Of a stretch of 64,000 nucleotides of DNA, positions 30,990 through 36,240 are shown piece by piece. A program made the position numbers and the translations under genes. How positions within the stretch are numbered: position 1 is the first letter of the stretch; each line of letters opens with the position of its first letter. Origin of the DNA: Bryocella elongata (GTDB lineage Bacteria > Acidobacteriota > Terriglobia > Terriglobales > Acidobacteriaceae); contig NZ_FNVA01000008.1 of the NCBI RefSeq assembly GCF_900108185.1, positions 248,001 through 312,000 on the forward strand. Direction: 5' to 3'. Under the pieces are notes generated by a model. That model was not told the origin of the DNA. It searched no databases and saw nothing but the letters and a program-made list of their open reading frames with translations.

Positions 30990-31058
30990 ATGGTGGCTAC
31001 TGGTTTCGCTTCAGGTAGCTCTGCACAGATCATCGCCATGTCAAGCTTCGACACCTCA

Positions 31059-31106
31059 GGGGCTAAAGCCCGGTGATTGCGGCCGTTTATGACGGGGCTG
31101 AAGCCC
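31059..31106. repeat. Pair of GGGGCT-N-AAGCCC palindromic repeats
   Basis: GGGGCTAAAGCCC (31059-31071) and GGGGCTGAAGCCC (31094-31106) are near-identical 13-base units, each nearly self-complementary. They lie in the gap between the convergent membrane-protein and anti-sigma genes. They could fold separately or with each other and may serve as a transcription block for both sides. Confidence 0.5.
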
Positions 31107-31140
31107 AGCCCTGACAAAGCGTGACTCGTGCAGAGGCTCC

Positions 31141-31401
31141 TCAGGGTGATGTCGAGGGTGGCCGCAGCTCCTCGTCAAGGCGGGCGTGCAGGCGTTCGCT
31201 GAAGCCGGCGGGGAGCTCGAAGACGCGCTCGTCCGCGGTGAGGATGATGATGTTGCGCGTGGAGTCGAGGACAGCGGAGCAGAGCTCGCAGTGGTCGAGG
31301 TGGTTCTGGACCATCCTGCGCGTCTCTTCGGAGAGCGAGCCGTCGATGTACTCGGAGATATAGCCCCAGACGTGTTTGCAGTCTATGACCAAGGGATCCA
31401 C
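31141..31401 (-). CDS. Zinc-binding anti-sigma factor (ZAS type), soluble
   Basis: An 86-residue protein with the anti-sigma zinc motif His34-x3-Cys38-x2-Cys41 (NHLDHCELC) and an upstream Cys8 (DCKHVWGYISEYIDGSLSEE). It has no membrane segment, so it is a cytoplasmic sensor-type ZAS that would hold the adjacent sigma factor inactive until zinc or thiol chemistry changes. Its ATG lies inside the sigma gene (19-base overlap), giving translational coupling and matched amounts. Thiol or metal stress is a likely signal, since a copper-peptide system is beside it. Confidence 0.87.
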   Translation of the reverse strand: MDPLVIDCKHVWGYISEYIDGSLSEETRRMVQNHLDHCELCSAVLDSTRNIIILTADERVFELPAGFSERLHARLDEELRPPSTSP

Positions 31402-32012
31402 CTCCTTTTCTGTGCGGGCTGCGTTGCTTTCAGCAGGGGTGTGAGCTGCTTCTGCAGCATGAGCCGAGCGCGGTGTAACCGGACTTTTACGGCCGGGACG
31501 CTGATCTGGAGCGCCTCGGCGGTTTCGCTTACATTCAATTCTTCTACATCGCGAAGCAGAAAGACCTGGCGGTAGATCTCCGGCAGTGCGGAGACGGCCT
31601 GTTGCAGGATGGTGCGAACCTCCATGCGCTCGAGGGCTTCGGAAGGGATCTCGCGCCAGTCTCGCAGCAGCGCGGGGGAGATGGGGCGATCTTCGTCAGG
31701 GTCTTCATCGAGCGACTGGATGCGAACGTTGCTTTGCTTGCGAAGGCGACTGCGAGCTTCGTTCAAGGTGATGCTGATGAGCCAGGTGCTGAACTGGGAC
31801 TCGAGGCGGAAGGTCGACAGGGCGCGGAAGGCCTTGAGAAAGGCCTCCTGAGCGACATCTTCGGCTTCTGCTTCGTTCTTCATAAAGGACAACGCCATCA
31901 TGTAGACGGTTCGCTCATGAGGCCGGATGAGCTCGTGATAGAGCTGGGTCTCACCGGCAAGGATTGCGGTGATGATCTCGGTCTCGGACTGCCTGGTGGG
32001 CGGCGGTTGCAT
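31383..32012 (-). CDS. ECF-type RNA polymerase sigma factor
   Basis: A 209-residue sigma-70 family protein with only regions 2 and 4. Region 2 is RTVYMMALSFMKNEAEAEDVAQEAFLKAFRALSTF followed by FSTWLISITLNEARSRLRK. Region 4 is LPEIYRQVFLLRDVEELNVSETAEALQISVPAVKVRLHRARLML. The ATG at MQPPPTRQ is the most likely start; an open frame continues upstream without conserved sequence. It is followed by its zinc anti-sigma factor and preceded by doxX, whose promoter-like site matches those of DUF1223 and bufA, so the sigma factor probably activates its own operon and those genes. Confidence 0.9.
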   Translation of the reverse strand: MQPPPTRQSETEIITAILAGETQLYHELIRPHERTVYMMALSFMKNEAEAEDVAQEAFLKAFRALSTFRLESQFSTWLISITLNEARSRLRKQSNVRIQSLDEDPDEDRPISPALLRDWREIPSEALERMEVRTILQQAVSALPEIYRQVFLLRDVEELNVSETAEALQISVPAVKVRLHRARLMLQKQLTPLLKATQPAQKRRWIPWS

Positions 32013-32061
32013 GTCTAGAGCATTTTCCCTGTTGCTGATTATCCCGGAAATGACGTGTGAT

Positions 32062-32086
32062 GGCGTTTTCGGTGGGAGAAAACGCC
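32062..32086 (-). terminator. Hairpin between doxX and the sigma gene (possible attenuator)
   Basis: A perfect 9-bp stem, GGCGTTTTC (32062-32070) with GAAAACGCC (32078-32086), closes a 7-base loop in the 116-base gap between the DoxX stop and the sigma ATG. No T-run follows on the minus strand, so it may limit rather than end transcription into the sigma and anti-sigma genes. Confidence 0.45.
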
Positions 32087-32128
32087 CCTGGAGTCGAGCT
32101 CCTGGATTGCACCTACAGAGGGAGTGAA

Positions 32129-32593
32129 CTACCGGGTGGCCTGGAGCCTCCTTGCGATGAGGGTATCGAGCGAGAAGAAGCCAGCGCCGAAGATGAGCAC
32201 CATCAGGGAGGCGAAGAGGAAGGTGTAGGGATCGGCGACGTAGAACTTTCCGGGGTCCGAGAAGACGGAGGTGAGGGCCTCGTGATCGGCGGTCCAGTAC
32301 GCGACGAGCATGTTGCAGGCGAGCAGGAAGGCGACGGGACGGGAGGCGAGTCCGAGCATCAGCAGGATGCCGCCGACGAACTCCAGCGTGGAGACGGCGG
32401 GCGCGTTTATGGCGGGGAAGGGGATGTTGAGGCTGGTGAAGAAGGCGGTGATCTTCGCGAGATTGTGGAGCTTGCCCCAGCCGGTCTGGGCGAACTGGAA
32501 GCCCCAGTAGAGGCGGACGGCGAGGAGCATGGGGGACTGAAGCTGGCAGAGCGCACGCACGACGCGCTGGTGATGTTCGATGAGCTTGTTCAT
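32129..32593 (-). CDS. DoxX family membrane protein (BufD-type candidate)
   Basis: A 154-residue protein with four hydrophobic segments and the DoxX pattern (LLAVRLYWGFQFAQTGWGKLHNLAKITAFF, STLEFVGGILLMLGLASRPVAFLLACNMLVAYW). AGGGAAAAA precedes the ATG. DoxX proteins are linked to redox or thiosulfate chemistry, and DoxX members occur in many bufferin clusters. Here it is the first gene of the doxX-sigma-anti-sigma unit and its promoter-like site matches that of the bufA-like gene, which supports membership in that system. Its exact role is unknown. Confidence 0.83.
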   Translation of the reverse strand: MNKLIEHHQRVVRALCQLQSPMLLAVRLYWGFQFAQTGWGKLHNLAKITAFFTSLNIPFPAINAPAVSTLEFVGGILLMLGLASRPVAFLLACNMLVAYWTADHEALTSVFSDPGKFYVADPYTFLFASLMVLIFGAGFFSLDTLIARRLQATR

Positions 32594-32650
32594 GGTTTTT
32601 CCCTTTGGGAAGAAGTATTGAGGCAGGCGTGCACTGCCAGCGTCGCCTCG

Positions 32651-32678
32651 TTAGAGACACCGGTCGGGATTCGGTTAC
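32651..32678 (-). promoter_or_regulatory. ECF-type promoter of doxX-sigma-anti-sigma
   Basis: On the minus strand GTAACC (32678-32673) is followed after exactly 17 bases by TCTAA (32655-32651), 58 bases before the doxX ATG. The same architecture appears at 32703-32730 and 33574-33601. It would make the sigma gene autoregulated. Confidence 0.65.
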
Positions 32679-32702
32679 AGGCAATCTGCTTCGGCTGGCG
32701 AT

Positions 32703-32730
32703 GTAACCGTTGTGGCGGAGGTGCGTCTGA
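32703..32730 (+). promoter_or_regulatory. ECF-type promoter of the DUF1223 gene
   Basis: GTAACC (32703-32708), 17 bases, then TCTGA (32726-32730), 30 bases before the DUF1223 ATG. It faces away from the doxX promoter; the two GTAACC boxes are 24 bases apart. The downstream box resembles the minus-10 of sigma-E-like factors. Confidence 0.65.
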
Positions 32731-32760
32731 TGGTGACTTCGGCAATGTGAGGTGCTGACT

Positions 32761-33519
32761 ATGCGACTACGTTATGTTTTTCCTGCATTTTTCCTTGTGG
32801 CTGCCGCACCCGCGAAGCCATGGGCGGCGATGCCAAATCCGGGCGGTGAGCCGGTGGCGGTGGTCGAGCTGTTTACGTCGGAGGGATGCTCGAGCTGCCC
32901 GCCTGCCGACGACTTCCTGCGCCGAATCAACCTGCAACATAACTCGGGGGAGCTGATTCTCGGGCTCAGCGAGCATGTGACGTACTGGAACCAGCTGGGG
33001 TGGAAGGATCCCTTCTCGCAGCAGGCCTTTACCGATCGGCAGGAGGTGTATGCGGACAAGCTTTCGAGCCGCGGACCGTACACGCCCCAGATGGTGGTGA
33101 ACGGGAGGGCCGAGTTTGTGGGCGGGAACGGTCCGGCGCTGGAGAAGGCGCTGCATGAAGACGCCGGCCTCGCGCATGGAGCGCTGGGGATCGCTGGGCA
33201 TGAGGTGGACAGTGGGAAGCTCAATGTGAGCTTCCACTTCAAGGCGCCGGATGCTCATGCGTACGACATCCTCGCGGTGATTGCGGACGATGCGGATCAC
33301 TCGAGCGTGGCGCGTGGGGAGAATGCAGGGCGAACACTCGCGCATGTCTCCGTTGTGAGACTGATGGCGAAGGTGGCGACGTTGAGCGGGGATTCCGACC
33401 AGACGGCACAGGTGAACCTGCCTGCGGATCTCGGCGGAGCCAGTCCGAGGCATCTCGTGTTGATCGCACAGCAACCTCATCAGGGAAGGATTGTCGCGGC
33501 AGTCACTGTGCCGCTATAG
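32761..33519 (+). CDS. DUF1223 family secreted thioredoxin-fold protein
   Basis: A 252-residue protein with a signal peptide (MRLRYVFPAFFLVAAAPAKPWA) and the DUF1223 opening VAVVELFTSEGCSSCPPADDFLRR, which places a Cys43-x-x-Cys46 thioredoxin-like pair. GLSEHVTYWNQLGWKDPFS and YTPQMVVNGRAEFVG are family landmarks. A periplasmic thiol-redox role is likely but unproved. GAGGTG lies about 9 bases before the ATG. The promoter-like site upstream is of the same type as those of doxX and bufA, so it appears to belong to the same stress regulon. Confidence 0.82.
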   Translation: MRLRYVFPAFFLVAAAPAKPWAAMPNPGGEPVAVVELFTSEGCSSCPPADDFLRRINLQHNSGELILGLSEHVTYWNQLGWKDPFSQQAFTDRQEVYADKLSSRGPYTPQMVVNGRAEFVGGNGPALEKALHEDAGLAHGALGIAGHEVDSGKLNVSFHFKAPDAHAYDILAVIADDADHSSVARGENAGRTLAHVSVVRLMAKVATLSGDSDQTAQVNLPADLGGASPRHLVLIAQQPHQGRIVAAVTVPL

Positions 33520-33573
33520 TTCCAGCGTTCCCTGCAAGTGTCCTGGGCCCGCGAAAAAAGTTTGGAAGTTTCT

Positions 33574-33601
33574 GTAACCCGGCGGGTCTTTTCGCTTCAA
33601 A
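33574..33601 (+). promoter_or_regulatory. ECF-type promoter of the bufferin operon
   Basis: GTAACC (33574-33579), 17 bases, then TCAAA (33597-33601), about 140 bases before the bufA ATG. The spacing is the same as in the two other promoter-like sites of the locus. The long leader behind it (33602-33741) holds no gene. Confidence 0.62.
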
Positions 33602-33741
33602 CCGGCGGCAACAAGAAAAAAGCAATACCGACATCCAGGCGAGCCCAGGCAGCGTAGTGCAAGCAGCTGCAGGCGGTCTCCCCACCGCAACTCCTCCCAT
33701 GTCCAGGCTGGCCGCCTGGCCCCAACCGAAAGGACAATCCC

Positions 33742-34029
33742 ATGAAGACGACCACCGTAAACACCCTCGCACTCGCAGCTGCACTGGCTGGCATGATGGG
33801 CGGCACCGCTGTCCGCATGAACGCACAGACGACCTCGGGCAACAGCCATGTATCGGCCACCGCTGGCACGCTGCTGGCGCAGGCTGACCAGAAGGACGTT
33901 GCGAAGCACTCCTGCAAGGGCAAGAACGATTGCAAGGGCCAGGGCGGCGGCAAGAATGCCGGCAAGAACTCCTGCAAGGGCAAGGGCGATTGCGCTACCG
34001 ATGGTTCCAAGGCGCCGAAGGCTGTCTAA
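33742..34029 (+). CDS. bufA: Bufferin-type metallophore precursor (BufA2-like)
   Basis: A 95-residue exported peptide with a signal sequence (LALAAALAGMMGGTAVRMNAQ). The mature part is Lys/Gly rich with two Cys units 20 residues apart: Cys58-K-G-K-N-D-Cys64 and Cys78-K-G-K-G-D-Cys84. Such peptides are modified at Cys by a DUF692 iron oxidase and exported to bind copper. The family usually has C-K-G-x-N-x-C-K-G-x-G-G-C; here the third Cys of unit 1 is replaced by Gly (KGQGGGKN). AAAGGAC precedes the ATG. A terminator-like hairpin follows before bufB, so more precursor than enzyme would be made. Confidence 0.8.
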   Translation: MKTTTVNTLALAAALAGMMGGTAVRMNAQTTSGNSHVSATAGTLLAQADQKDVAKHSCKGKNDCKGQGGGKNAGKNSCKGKGDCATDGSKAPKAV

Positions 34030-34032
34030 CTT

Positions 34033-34080
34033 CCTCCCCCGGTGGGAGGTCCGGATCATGGGCCTCCCATTTGTTTTTCT
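34033..34080 (+). terminator. Terminator/antiterminator pair between bufA and bufB
   Basis: GGGAGGTCC (34044-34052) pairs with GGGCCTCCC (34060-34068) in a 9-bp stem with one G-U pair, followed by ATTTGTTTTTCT. The same GGGAGG (34044-34049) can instead pair with CCTCCC (34033-34038) around a 5-base loop. The two folds exclude each other, so this is a terminator that could be switched or leaky. Confidence 0.65.
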
Positions 34081-34132
34081 GCAGTGAACTTCAGTCTGCA
34101 GCGACCGCCATTACGATTTGCAAGGGAGAGCC

Positions 34133-34996
34133 ATGCCAGCCAATCGCTTCAACGCATTCACGGACTACGGCGTCGGCATTGGGCTGCGGGTACCGCACTA
34201 CGATCACATCCTGTGCCGCAAGCCGGTGGTGGACTGGTTCGAGATCATCAGTGAGAACTACATGATCGATGGCGGCCGTCCGTTGCGGATGCTGGACGCG
34301 ATCCTCGATCAATATCGGGTTGTGCAGCATGGCGTGTCGATGTACTTCGGCAACGCGCAGCCGCTGAACCGGGATCATCTGCGGAGGCTCAAAGAGCTTA
34401 CGAAGCGGACGAAGACGCCGTGGCTCTCGGACCATCTCTGCTGGGGCAGTGTGGACGGGCGTTACACGCATGACCTGCTGCCACTGCCGTATACGTTCGA
34501 GGCGGTGCGCAATACGGCGCAGCGCATTCGCGAGGTGCAGGACTTTATCGAGATTCCGATCGCTGTCGAAAACGTGAGCAGCTATGCGGAGTTTCACGAA
34601 TCAGAGATGACGGAGTGGGAGTTCCTGAACGAGGTAGTTGAGGCTGCGGATTGCGGCATCCTGCTCGACGTGAACAATATCTACGTGTCATCGCAGAATC
34701 ATGGGTTCGACCCGATGGAGTATGTGAACAGCGTCCCTGCAGAGCGCGTCGCGCAGATGCACATCGCGGGTCACTCAAAGTTTGAGCGCTACACGCTGGA
34801 CACGCATGATCATCCGGTGCTGGACCCTGTGTGGAAGCTTTACGAACGTGCGATTGAGCGGTGCGGACCGACCGCTACGCTGCTGGAGTGGGACGACAAC
34901 ATCCCTTCCTTCGATGAGGTGCATGCCGAGGCGCTGAAGGCGATGCGGTTCCTCGAGCCCGCGCGGGCGCTGGAGCTCGACGAGGTGATGGCATGA
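34133..34996 (+). CDS. bufB: DUF692 multinuclear non-heme iron oxidase (BufB/MbnB type)
   Basis: A 287-residue TIM-barrel MNIO. Candidate iron ligands in family positions are His66 (VVQHGVSMYF), Asp100-His101 (LSDHLCW), Glu146-Asn147 (AVENVSS), Asp179-Asn181 (LLDVNNIY), His210 and His214 (MHIAGHS), Asp226-His227 (THDHP) and Glu252 (LLEWDDN). It should oxidise Cys residues of the BufA peptide, using DUF2063 protein as partner. AAGGGAG precedes the ATG; an upstream TTG is less likely. The stop overlaps the bufC ATG (ATGA). Confidence 0.9.
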   Translation: MPANRFNAFTDYGVGIGLRVPHYDHILCRKPVVDWFEIISENYMIDGGRPLRMLDAILDQYRVVQHGVSMYFGNAQPLNRDHLRRLKELTKRTKTPWLSDHLCWGSVDGRYTHDLLPLPYTFEAVRNTAQRIREVQDFIEIPIAVENVSSYAEFHESEMTEWEFLNEVVEAADCGILLDVNNIYVSSQNHGFDPMEYVNSVPAERVAQMHIAGHSKFERYTLDTHDHPVLDPVWKLYERAIERCGPTATLLEWDDNIPSFDEVHAEALKAMRFLEPARALELDEVMA

Positions 34997-35886
34997 GCCT
35001 GCTGGAGCTGCAGCGTCGCATGGCGGAGGATGTGCGCCGGCCATTGGCGGCAGGCTTTGCGATGCAGACTGTCACGGAAGATGGAACCTTGATGGAGGAG
35101 CGTGCTGCGAGTTACATCACGCCGAATCCGCAGCTGAGTTCTTTCGAGCGACTGGAGATCTACAACCGGCAGTACTGGTTTCGGGTGATCGGCGCGGTGT
35201 CGGAGGACTTTCCGGCGGTGAATGCTGTGCTGGGCGAACGCAGGTTCGATGCGCTGGTGCTGGCGTACCTCAAGGAGCATGCGTCGATCTCGTGGACGTT
35301 GCGGGACCTGGGAGCGAAGCTGCCGGAGTTCCTGGAGGAGCACCCTGAGCTTGCTGGGCGGCGGTATCGTCTGGCGGTGGATGTCGCGCGGCTGGAATGG
35401 GCGTATGTGGATGCGTTCGACGGGGAGCGGCTGGAGCCGCTGTCGTTGGCGGAGCTGGCGGGGATCGGTCCCGAGTCGAGGTTTGAGCTGCAGCCGCATC
35501 TTCGATTGCTGGAGCTGAGTTATCCGGTGGAAGACCTGGTGCTGGCGGTGCGTCGCGGGACTCCGGAGACGGAGATGTCGAGCAGCGCATCGCAGGAGCG
35601 AAGCGGGCCGGCCGAGCTGAGGCTTCCGGCGATGCGGCGGCGGACGGTGTACCTCGCGGTGCATCGCTATGACGACCAGGTGTACTACCGGCGCATCGGC
35701 CCGGAGGCCTTCCGGCTTCTGGGAGCATTGCAGGAGGGACGGACGCTGGCGGAGTCGCTGACCGCTGCGTTCGTGGGGAAGACGGTGTCGGCGGGGCGGC
35801 AGGCGCAGGTGGTGCAGGAGTGCCTGGCGCACGCGTCGCAGCTGGGCTGGCTGTGCGCTCCCCGAGTCGAAGAGCGGCCGGCTTAG
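34993..35886 (+). CDS. bufC: DUF2063 (BufC-type) partner of the DUF692 oxidase
   Basis: A 297-residue protein. The N-terminal DUF2063 domain is recognised by LLELQRRMAEDVR, SSFERLEIYNRQYWFRVIGAVSEDFPAVNAVLGERRFDALVLAYL and LARLEWAYVDAFD-like VARLEWAYVDAFDGE; the C-terminal part is less conserved. In known pairs this protein holds the precursor leader for the oxidase. It is translationally coupled to bufB by ATGA. A weak annotation as DNA-binding exists for the domain, but the setting favours peptide recognition. Confidence 0.87.
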   Translation: MSLLELQRRMAEDVRRPLAAGFAMQTVTEDGTLMEERAASYITPNPQLSSFERLEIYNRQYWFRVIGAVSEDFPAVNAVLGERRFDALVLAYLKEHASISWTLRDLGAKLPEFLEEHPELAGRRYRLAVDVARLEWAYVDAFDGERLEPLSLAELAGIGPESRFELQPHLRLLELSYPVEDLVLAVRRGTPETEMSSSASQERSGPAELRLPAMRRRTVYLAVHRYDDQVYYRRIGPEAFRLLGALQEGRTLAESLTAAFVGKTVSAGRQAQVVQECLAHASQLGWLCAPRVEERPA

Positions 35887-36240
35887 GACAGGAGCCTGTA
35901 CCGAAGCGGGCGTTTTCTGTTCTGCGAAGAGACCTGGAGACCCTCAAAGTTCCTCGCCGCTCGGCGGCTGACGGAACGAGGCGTGTCCAGTGTTCATGCG
36001 GCTCTGCGGAGATCTGCTACCTCAGTGCGGCTCATTGAGGCGAATTTCCACGTAGAACAAGCTATCAGTGCAGAGCAGGTTACAGCAGGTATGGAACGGT
36101 GATGGCACGGTTCATTCGTTGACATCGCGGGAGGGCCACTCCTAGTATCCGCGGCGACTCGCAGAAGGATTGCGAGCGGATGCCGGGACCCGCGGTCGCA
36201 CGCGCCAGTCTCAAGGGCACAACTCTTTGAGGTCGGATGC
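35887..36240. other. Intergenic region upstream of TonB receptor 2
   Basis: About 350 bases without a convincing gene, carrying the receptor promoter region. The clear element is the inverted repeat at 36094-36113. A GTAACC on the minus strand (36083-36078) is not followed by a matching downstream box. GAGGTC just before 36241 is the receptor ribosome binding site. Confidence 0.4.
36094..36113. promoter_or_regulatory. Operator-like inverted repeat, copy A (TonB receptor 2)
   Basis: GAACGGT-GATGGC-ACGGTTC: 7-base half sites with perfect symmetry around a 6-base centre, 127 bases before the receptor ATG. It shares its layout with the sites at 41377, 45776 and 48492, though its centre differs. 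Confidence 0.5.

Follow-up and report, generated by a model that had tools for sequence, protein, structure and literature searches.

Three promoter-like sites at the divergent doxX/DUF1223/bufA locus of Bryocella elongata are very probably the promoters of an ECF sigma factor encoded at 31383-32012 of the analysed stretch of DNA (64,000 nt; the window), and this sigma factor would drive a regulon for copper buffering and methionine/cysteine repair in the cell envelope. Promoter architecture, conservation, pooled co-occurrence and gene families were computed, while the role of the window sigma as reader of the sites, the inducing signal and the physiology are what we infer from sequence. The observation of three sites leads to a specific, testable regulon in the Acidobacteria, a phylum for which, to our knowledge, few regulatory data exist.

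The divergent locus and its three sites

The sequence-only reading had reported GTAACC, 17 bases and then TCTAA, TCTGA or TCAAA upstream of doxX (minus strand), DUF1223 (plus) and bufA (plus), and each of the three sites was found exactly so. The locus is composed of the following features:

31141..31401, minus: anti-sigma of the zf-HC2/ZAS type, 86 aa (Pfam zf-HC2, 50.6 bits)
31383..32012, minus: ECF sigma factor, 209 aa, regions 2 and 4 (Pfam Sigma70_r2, Sigma70_r4_2)
32129..32593, minus: DoxX-family membrane protein (HvfX-like), leading the sigma unit (Pfam DoxX, 70.6 bits)
32651-32678, minus: predicted ECF promoter of doxX-sigma-antisigma, GTAACC-N17-TCTAA with T before GTAACC
32703-32730, plus: predicted ECF promoter of DUF1223, GTAACC-N17-TCTGA with T before GTAACC
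32761..33519, plus: DUF1223 protein, thioredoxin-like, with a CSSC motif (Pfam DUF1223, 187 bits)
33574-33601, plus: predicted ECF promoter of bufABC, GTAACC-N17-TCAAA with T before GTAACC
33602..33741, plus: long 5' leader of bufA, carrying a small hairpin immediately ahead of the ribosome-binding site (local fold, weak signal)
33742..34029, plus: BufA2-like bufferin precursor, 4 Cys after the signal peptide (peptide judged by eye)
34133..34996, plus: bufB, MNIO bufferin maturase (DUF692) (NCBIfam MNIO_BufB, 354 bits, cut-off 310)
34993..35886, plus: bufC, DUF2063 partner protein (Pfam DUF2063, 64.2 bits, cut-off 27.2)

The doxX and DUF1223 sites are divergent, with 24 bases separating their -35 boxes, and lie in the gap between the two genes (32594-32760). 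The pattern GTAACC-N17-TC[AT][AG]A (the strict pattern) is matched three times in the window against 0.03 matches expected from dinucleotide shuffles, and at least three matches occurred in 0 of 100 shuffles. The genome-wide search that had been proposed returned four strict-pattern sites in the B. elongata genome (5,668,024 bases, 16 contigs) and two for the backwards-read control; three of the four are those of the window, and the fourth (L001) lies within a called ORF. The three-site observation is confirmed, far beyond chance.

The closest solved chains to the sigma factor include a sigma-H factor, SigW and RpoE. Its gene shares a 19-base overlap with that of the anti-sigma, a protein with the motif C-X25-H-X3-C-X2-C and no hydrophobic span (maximum Kyte-Doolittle 19-mer, 1.04), and the ZAS motif (C/H-X23-26-H-X3-C-X2-C) is present in 63/63 distinct segments homologous to it. 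The DoxX protein scores 55.7 bits against NCBIfam HvfX, below the cut-off of 80. The DUF1223 protein, whose signal peptide was judged by eye and whose gene has an alternative start, GTG, at 32752, carries both the Pfam domain and a CxxC motif, the latter kept in 30/30 aligned homologues. It is related to PDB 2axo, which has a thioredoxin fold according to PMC3091736; for DUF1223, the available text of that paper gives only the fold.

MNIO BufB and DUF2063, the pair by which a bufferin cluster was recognized, are both present in the window. The nearest named BufB loci are those of Granulicella, Edaphobacter and other Acidobacteriaceae, and Verrucomicrobia are also found among the best 80 of 562 confirmed loci. 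Against NCBIfam BufA2 the BufA precursor reaches 23.8 bits (cut-off 60). Among 97 distinct BufA homologues, 59 have 6 Cys, 29 have 4, and the other 9 have 3, 5 or 7; since most carry 6 Cys, compared with 4 here, the window BufA resembles a reduced Buf2 peptide. By eye, the two middle cysteines are missing from the 4-Cys form, which together with the 6-Cys form makes up most of the homologues. The hairpin of the bufA leader stands, in many 4-Cys BufA loci, directly 5' of a conserved YCAACC..GAAAGG ribosome-binding stretch. Locally it gave a mean z of -1.4 (23 chosen leaders, mononucleotide shuffles), and the whole leader gave no fold signal (z -0.02); an alignment of 20 chosen bufA leaders yielded no consensus pair or structure, and an Rfam search of window positions 31000-36200 at E up to 1 yielded no match.

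Positional conservation among relatives

A phylogenetic footprint was taken from the best 80 of the 562 confirmed BufB loci, 30 loci of a class search (BufB present in 89/299 genomes) and 20 longer stretches, among which L155 and L156 represent other places. For each gene, GTAAC[CT]-Nk-TCNNA was counted for k = 6 to 30; upstreams shorter than 150 bases and sigma matches below 45% identity were omitted, as were duplicates judged on the final 200 bases. The 99 distinct bufA upstreams contain the pattern with N17 in 41 cases, with N18 in 9 and with every other spacer in 0-3; for the 86 doxX upstreams the values are 22, 1 and 0-1, respectively, and for the 14 DUF1223 upstreams of this set N17 occurs in 5 and N18 in 2. 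Internal genes have the N17 form in 1/106 (bufB), 1/103 (bufC) and 0/40 (anti-sigma) upstreams. The spacer of exactly 17 bases reported earlier is true of the three window sites, but not throughout the relatives, where bufA also takes N18. A T precedes GTAAC at N17 sites in 22/22 (doxX), 36/37 (bufA) and 6/6 (DUF1223) distinct cases; the -10 box is TCTAA in 22/22 distinct N17 doxX sites and varied at bufA, with TCNAA forms commonest.

It is very unlikely that the conserved blocks are the two halves of an operator bound by a repressor or activator, instead of -35 and -10 boxes. Contact with the polymerase does not follow from position and spacing alone, yet the blocks are asymmetric, point towards the gene and keep a 17/18-base spacing, TGTAACC resembles the mapped ECF16 -35 box (PMC3511200, PMC8315932), and a variable, -10-like TCNNA is found beside sigma genes.

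In sigma-linked loci, a site is present at doxX in 20/21 cases when doxX leads the unit and in 0/17 when it stands behind bufC; in loci without linked sigma, the corresponding values are 2/9 and 1/39. The bufA site was found in 24/31 upstreams with linked sigma and in 26/68 without, many of the latter loci being too short to include a sigma gene. The link of the sigma to doxX, DUF1223 and bufA drawn by the sequence-only reading is upheld by the placement of the site at unit leaders and not at internal genes, together with the pooled co-occurrence given below. The autoregulation that it implied is supported for doxX-led sigma units and less so for sigma-led ones: among 19 such loci, with no doxX upstream, a site lies at most 340 bases upstream in 6 and is missing in 13. 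In G378, a doxX-sigma-antisigma unit situated apart from buf has retained its own TCTAA site.

The signal is one of conserved position, not of raw count. Across 120 family genomes the strict pattern has 413 sites, fewer than the 695 of its backwards control, as might be expected of chance matches to a short pattern; given that none of the 100 shuffles of the window reached three matches, this explanation is nevertheless hardly credible, and for bufA and doxX it is already refuted by the spacer-specific conservation over 99 and 86 upstreams. Eight BufB-bearing relatives gave 72 strict N17 sites vs. 53 backwards, and an N12-spacer control 30 vs. 46. The question posed at the outset, whether coding DNA holds the pattern as often as upstream DNA does, receives a mixed answer from the 120-genome and eight-relative counts. 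Sixty-two of the 72 sites (those outside buf loci) were examined, six G241/G258 loci having been removed before the count: 22/62 are coding, compared with 14/30 of the N12 control, and the intergenic share over all four -10 types (40/62) is near that of the control (16/30).

Sites with TCTAA in these eight relatives are intergenic in 14/15 cases, and 11 of them stand before genes: cytochrome b561-like (four g35 genomes, Pfam on two), MsrP, MsrB, NmrA-like, a second DoxX, the doxX-sigma unit of G378, lactonase-like and hydrolase. Most of these genes were excluded from the regulon claim for want of conservation support. The cytochrome b561-like genes preceded by GTAACC-N17-TCTAA (L126, L138, L139 and L147) belong to four genomes of one genus, and in other genomes (L303, L308, L310 and L311) the sigma gene adjoins cytochrome b561-like genes. 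The stretch GTAACCAATGGTTAC-N8-TCTAA, with an inverted GTAACC inside, precedes NmrA-like genes in two genera (L125/L155 and L156), the gene of the second genus (L156) not being in the count of 11. In four close relatives, a site retained ahead of an EF-G-like gene (name by eye) was put down to probable shared descent. In B. elongata, GTAACY-N17/18-TCTAA matches the doxX site and one more, which is located between ribosomal-protein-like and RNA-polymerase-alpha-like genes (named by eye) and was excluded.

Further candidate members and the sigma proposed to read them

The refined pattern TGTAACC-N17-TCNNA has eight sites in the B. elongata genome, compared with four for the backwards control. 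Seven of the eight are upstream of buf or redox genes, three of these being the window sites, and the eighth lies within an aldose-epimerase-like ORF (name by eye). The four upstream sites outside the window are:

C4:575594: before msrP then msrQ, the called msrP start 1 base past the site
C4:636253: before a gene for an AhpC/TSA protein, 35 bases between
C10:265651: before a gene for a TlpA/ResA-like thioredoxin then DsbD_N, 72 bases between
C15:307841: before msrA (signal peptide by eye), 16 bases between

With the called msrP start only 1 base past the site, a later start is likely. At the AhpC/TSA gene the -35 box overlaps the stop of the upstream gene, and the gene caller placed an ORF over the site on the opposite strand. 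MsrP and MsrA are above their NCBIfam cut-offs and AhpC/TSA, thioredoxin and DsbD_N above those of Pfam; MsrQ, in a frame truncated at the end of its locus, matches below the cut-off. A random site would fall at most 120 bases upstream of a start with a chance of 2.3% (from the gene map of the window), and at this rate 7/8 upstream sites have a probability of ~3e-11, 4/5 out-of-window sites a p of ~1.4e-6, and 3/5, with the AhpC site uncounted, a p of ~1.2e-4.

Members predicted from one genome or locus were then checked in the best 30 loci each from a search of 120 family genomes, which gave matches in 95 (msrP), 62 (DUF1223) and 63 (msrA) genomes. The site was found (i) at msrP with N17 in 10 and N18 in 4 loci (14/30; other spacers 0-1), (ii) at msrA with N17 in 11 (others 0-1; 0.075 expected from mononucleotide shuffles) and (iii) at DUF1223 with N17 in 9 and N18 in 4 (13/30; others 0-2), the last result bearing out the proposed membership of DUF1223 in the regulon. 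Conservation at the three genes is partial (11-14/30), which counts against the main reading. The control consisted of 111 further ORF upstreams from these loci, excluding ORFs at locus ends, with fewer than 330 bases upstream or over the locus centre; a site was present in 8 (doxX 3, bufA 2, msrA 2, a Met-rich peptide gene 1) and in none of the remaining 103. Two of the eight are the doxX and bufA sites of the window itself, and one is a target msrA (L371) that slipped past the filter. The Met-rich gene (L332, G037:C5) is small and MXKDX-like, with a TGTAACT-N17-TCTCA site of its own; its product appears by eye to be exported and has no Pfam match, and in G037 it lies side by side with DUF1223 and msrA.

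The regulon seems to extend beyond three promoters, with msrPQ and msrA as candidate members supported by conservation; TlpA/DsbD_N and AhpC/TSA probably belong to it as well, judging from a pattern match in a single genome.

Pooled over msrP, msrA and DUF1223, a site was present in 33/62 loci of sigma-bearing genomes (sigma match at no less than 45% identity) and in 5/28 loci of genomes without the sigma (p = 0.0024), in a test that ignores relatedness and reuses genomes; p values for the single genes are weak (0.14, 0.03 and 0.05, respectively). Sigma identities are those among the matches listed, with the remaining genomes set at ~40%. Co-occurrence favours reading of the sites by the linked sigma, although it is not proof. 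The sites might instead be ECF promoters read by another ECF sigma, the linked one having a different regulon, and several observations would fit: the genome encodes a 41% sigma paralogue that may be able to read them, a sigma class of ~40% identity recurs in many genomes among the matches listed, five genomes with no detected sigma of the window type have an msrP site (G097, G085, G012, G043 and G081), and sigma-led loci commonly (13/19) lack a site near the sigma. We regard this as unlikely, since the sigma's own unit begins with the site in all but one of the doxX-led loci, 0/12 msrA/DUF1223 loci in genomes without the sigma have a site, and G043 and G081 each have a sigma-bearing congener (G101 and G002, respectively). 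A 48% sigma homologue with an in-frame stop was observed at G017:C1:1482275, and the msrP of G017 is without a site.

According to the preferred reading, in which the linked sigma recognizes the sites, the soluble zinc-binding (ZAS) anti-sigma would hold the sigma factor in the cytoplasm and release it when thiols are oxidized or a thiophilic metal displaces the zinc. Free sigma would then transcribe (i) its own operon with doxX, resulting in positive autoregulation, (ii) bufABC, encoding a copper-binding peptide, and the gene of DUF1223, a periplasmic thioredoxin-like protein, and (iii) elsewhere in the genome, msrPQ and the signal-peptide msrA for methionine sulfoxide repair, with the TlpA-like thioredoxin gene with DsbD_N and the AhpC/TSA gene as probable further targets. 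The output would be copper buffering combined with methionine/cysteine repair in the envelope.

The msr and thioredoxin-type members would implicate envelope thiol/methionine oxidation, besides metal, as the signal. That the same promoters and sigma respond to metals only (copper, chromate, cadmium), as with Caulobacter SigF, the redox genes being incidental, is possible but doubtful, and concerns the signal, not the promoters. In Caulobacter, copper induces SigF-regulon genes for bufferin, DoxX and MsrPQ (PMC8224329), and reactive-oxygen-generating agents fail to induce SigF-dependent genes (PMC3511200); against this, genes of thiol/methionine redox type account for five of the eight genome-wide sites, and related systems respond to hypochlorite (PMC7907618, PMC8315932).

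Comparison with known ECF and bufferin systems

By the features compared, the predicted regulon works like the SigF and RpoE2 regulons and is outside the SigF (ECF16) group. The GTAACC -35 box that the sequence-only reading attributed to a Caulobacter ECF sigma agrees with PMC3511200, where the SigF promoter is GTAACC-N16-CGAA; the ECF16 promoter is given as (T/C)GTAAC-N17-CGAA (PMC8315932). The regulon of Caulobacter SigF includes bufferin, DoxX and YedY/MsrPQ genes (PMC3511200, PMC8224329), and the system described here is like SigF/NrsF (ECF16) in its GTAACC -35 box and in a regulon of bufABC-doxX-type genes plus MsrPQ/YedY, content that B. elongata has (bufABC, doxX, msrPQ) by predicted promoters. 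It differs from SigF in its -10 box (TCNAA at N17, as against CGAA at N16), in the DUF1223, MsrA and thioredoxin members of the candidate regulon, and in an anti-sigma of the ZAS type in place of NrsF (DUF1109).

The window sigma is 19-22% identical (17-41 bits) to nine sigma-like NrsF-neighbouring frames of the class, Caulobacter SigF not being among them, vs. 47-73% (191-320 bits) to 29 of its own type. A search for NrsF gave no match in G000 and matches in 18/121 genomes (13 over the cut-off), all in other families. Membership in ECF16 was rejected on the zf-HC2 anti-sigma, the low sigma identity and the lack of NrsF in G000; of the promoter, only the -35 box agrees, the -10 box being TCNAA/TCWGA at a different distance. 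The Caulobacter parallel drawn in the sequence-only reading extends to the -35 box, not to the kind of sigma. In NrsF-type loci of the class (L243-L245), a GTAAC[CT]-N16-CGAA match lies within the sigma reading frame.

Haemophilus RpoE2/HrsE and Neisseria SigE likewise have a small cytoplasmic ZAS anti-sigma, and their regulon includes methionine sulfoxide reductase together with a DoxX/UPF0276/DUF2063 cluster (PMC7907618); no GTAACC promoter for these systems was found in the available text of that paper. The likeness is one of anti-sigma type and regulon content. The peptide of the Haemophilus/Neisseria-type cluster is of the HvfA/oxazolin type, whereas the peptide here is BufA2-like. Brucella BcrS/AbcS and Azospira SigF (ECF16, hypochlorite) share the TGTAAC -35 box, Msr genes and a Met-rich peptide (PMC8315932), the last paralleled by the MXKDX-like gene with a site in the relative G037, but differ in their ECF16/DUF1109 anti-sigma and CGAA -10 box; the main text of PMC8315932, as available, names neither DoxX nor DUF692.

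The locus is like Buf2 clusters in its BufA2-like precursor, MNIO, DUF2063 and DoxX, and unlike Buf2 bufferins, with 6 or 12 Cys, in having 4. In the available text of PMC12452194, sigma and NrsF genes are reported with Buf1, not Buf2, clusters; the ECF sigma tied here to a BufA2-like bufferin is a link absent from that published MNIO survey. A literature search on DUF1223 found no link to such a sigma regulon, and the domain gains a functional neighbourhood of envelope methionine/cysteine repair and copper buffering.

The same -35 box and the same kind of regulon, with two unrelated sigma/anti-sigma pairs, raise an evolutionary question. As a tentative answer, at least two unrelated ECF sigma/anti-sigma pairs may have taken over bufferin/Msr regulons, the shared TGTAACC -35 box having converged or been inherited while the -10 box and the sensor changed; in Acidobacteria, sensing would fall to the cytoplasmic zinc-thiol anti-sigma, with DUF1223 acting alongside Msr and bufferin as a periplasmic thiol oxidoreductase.
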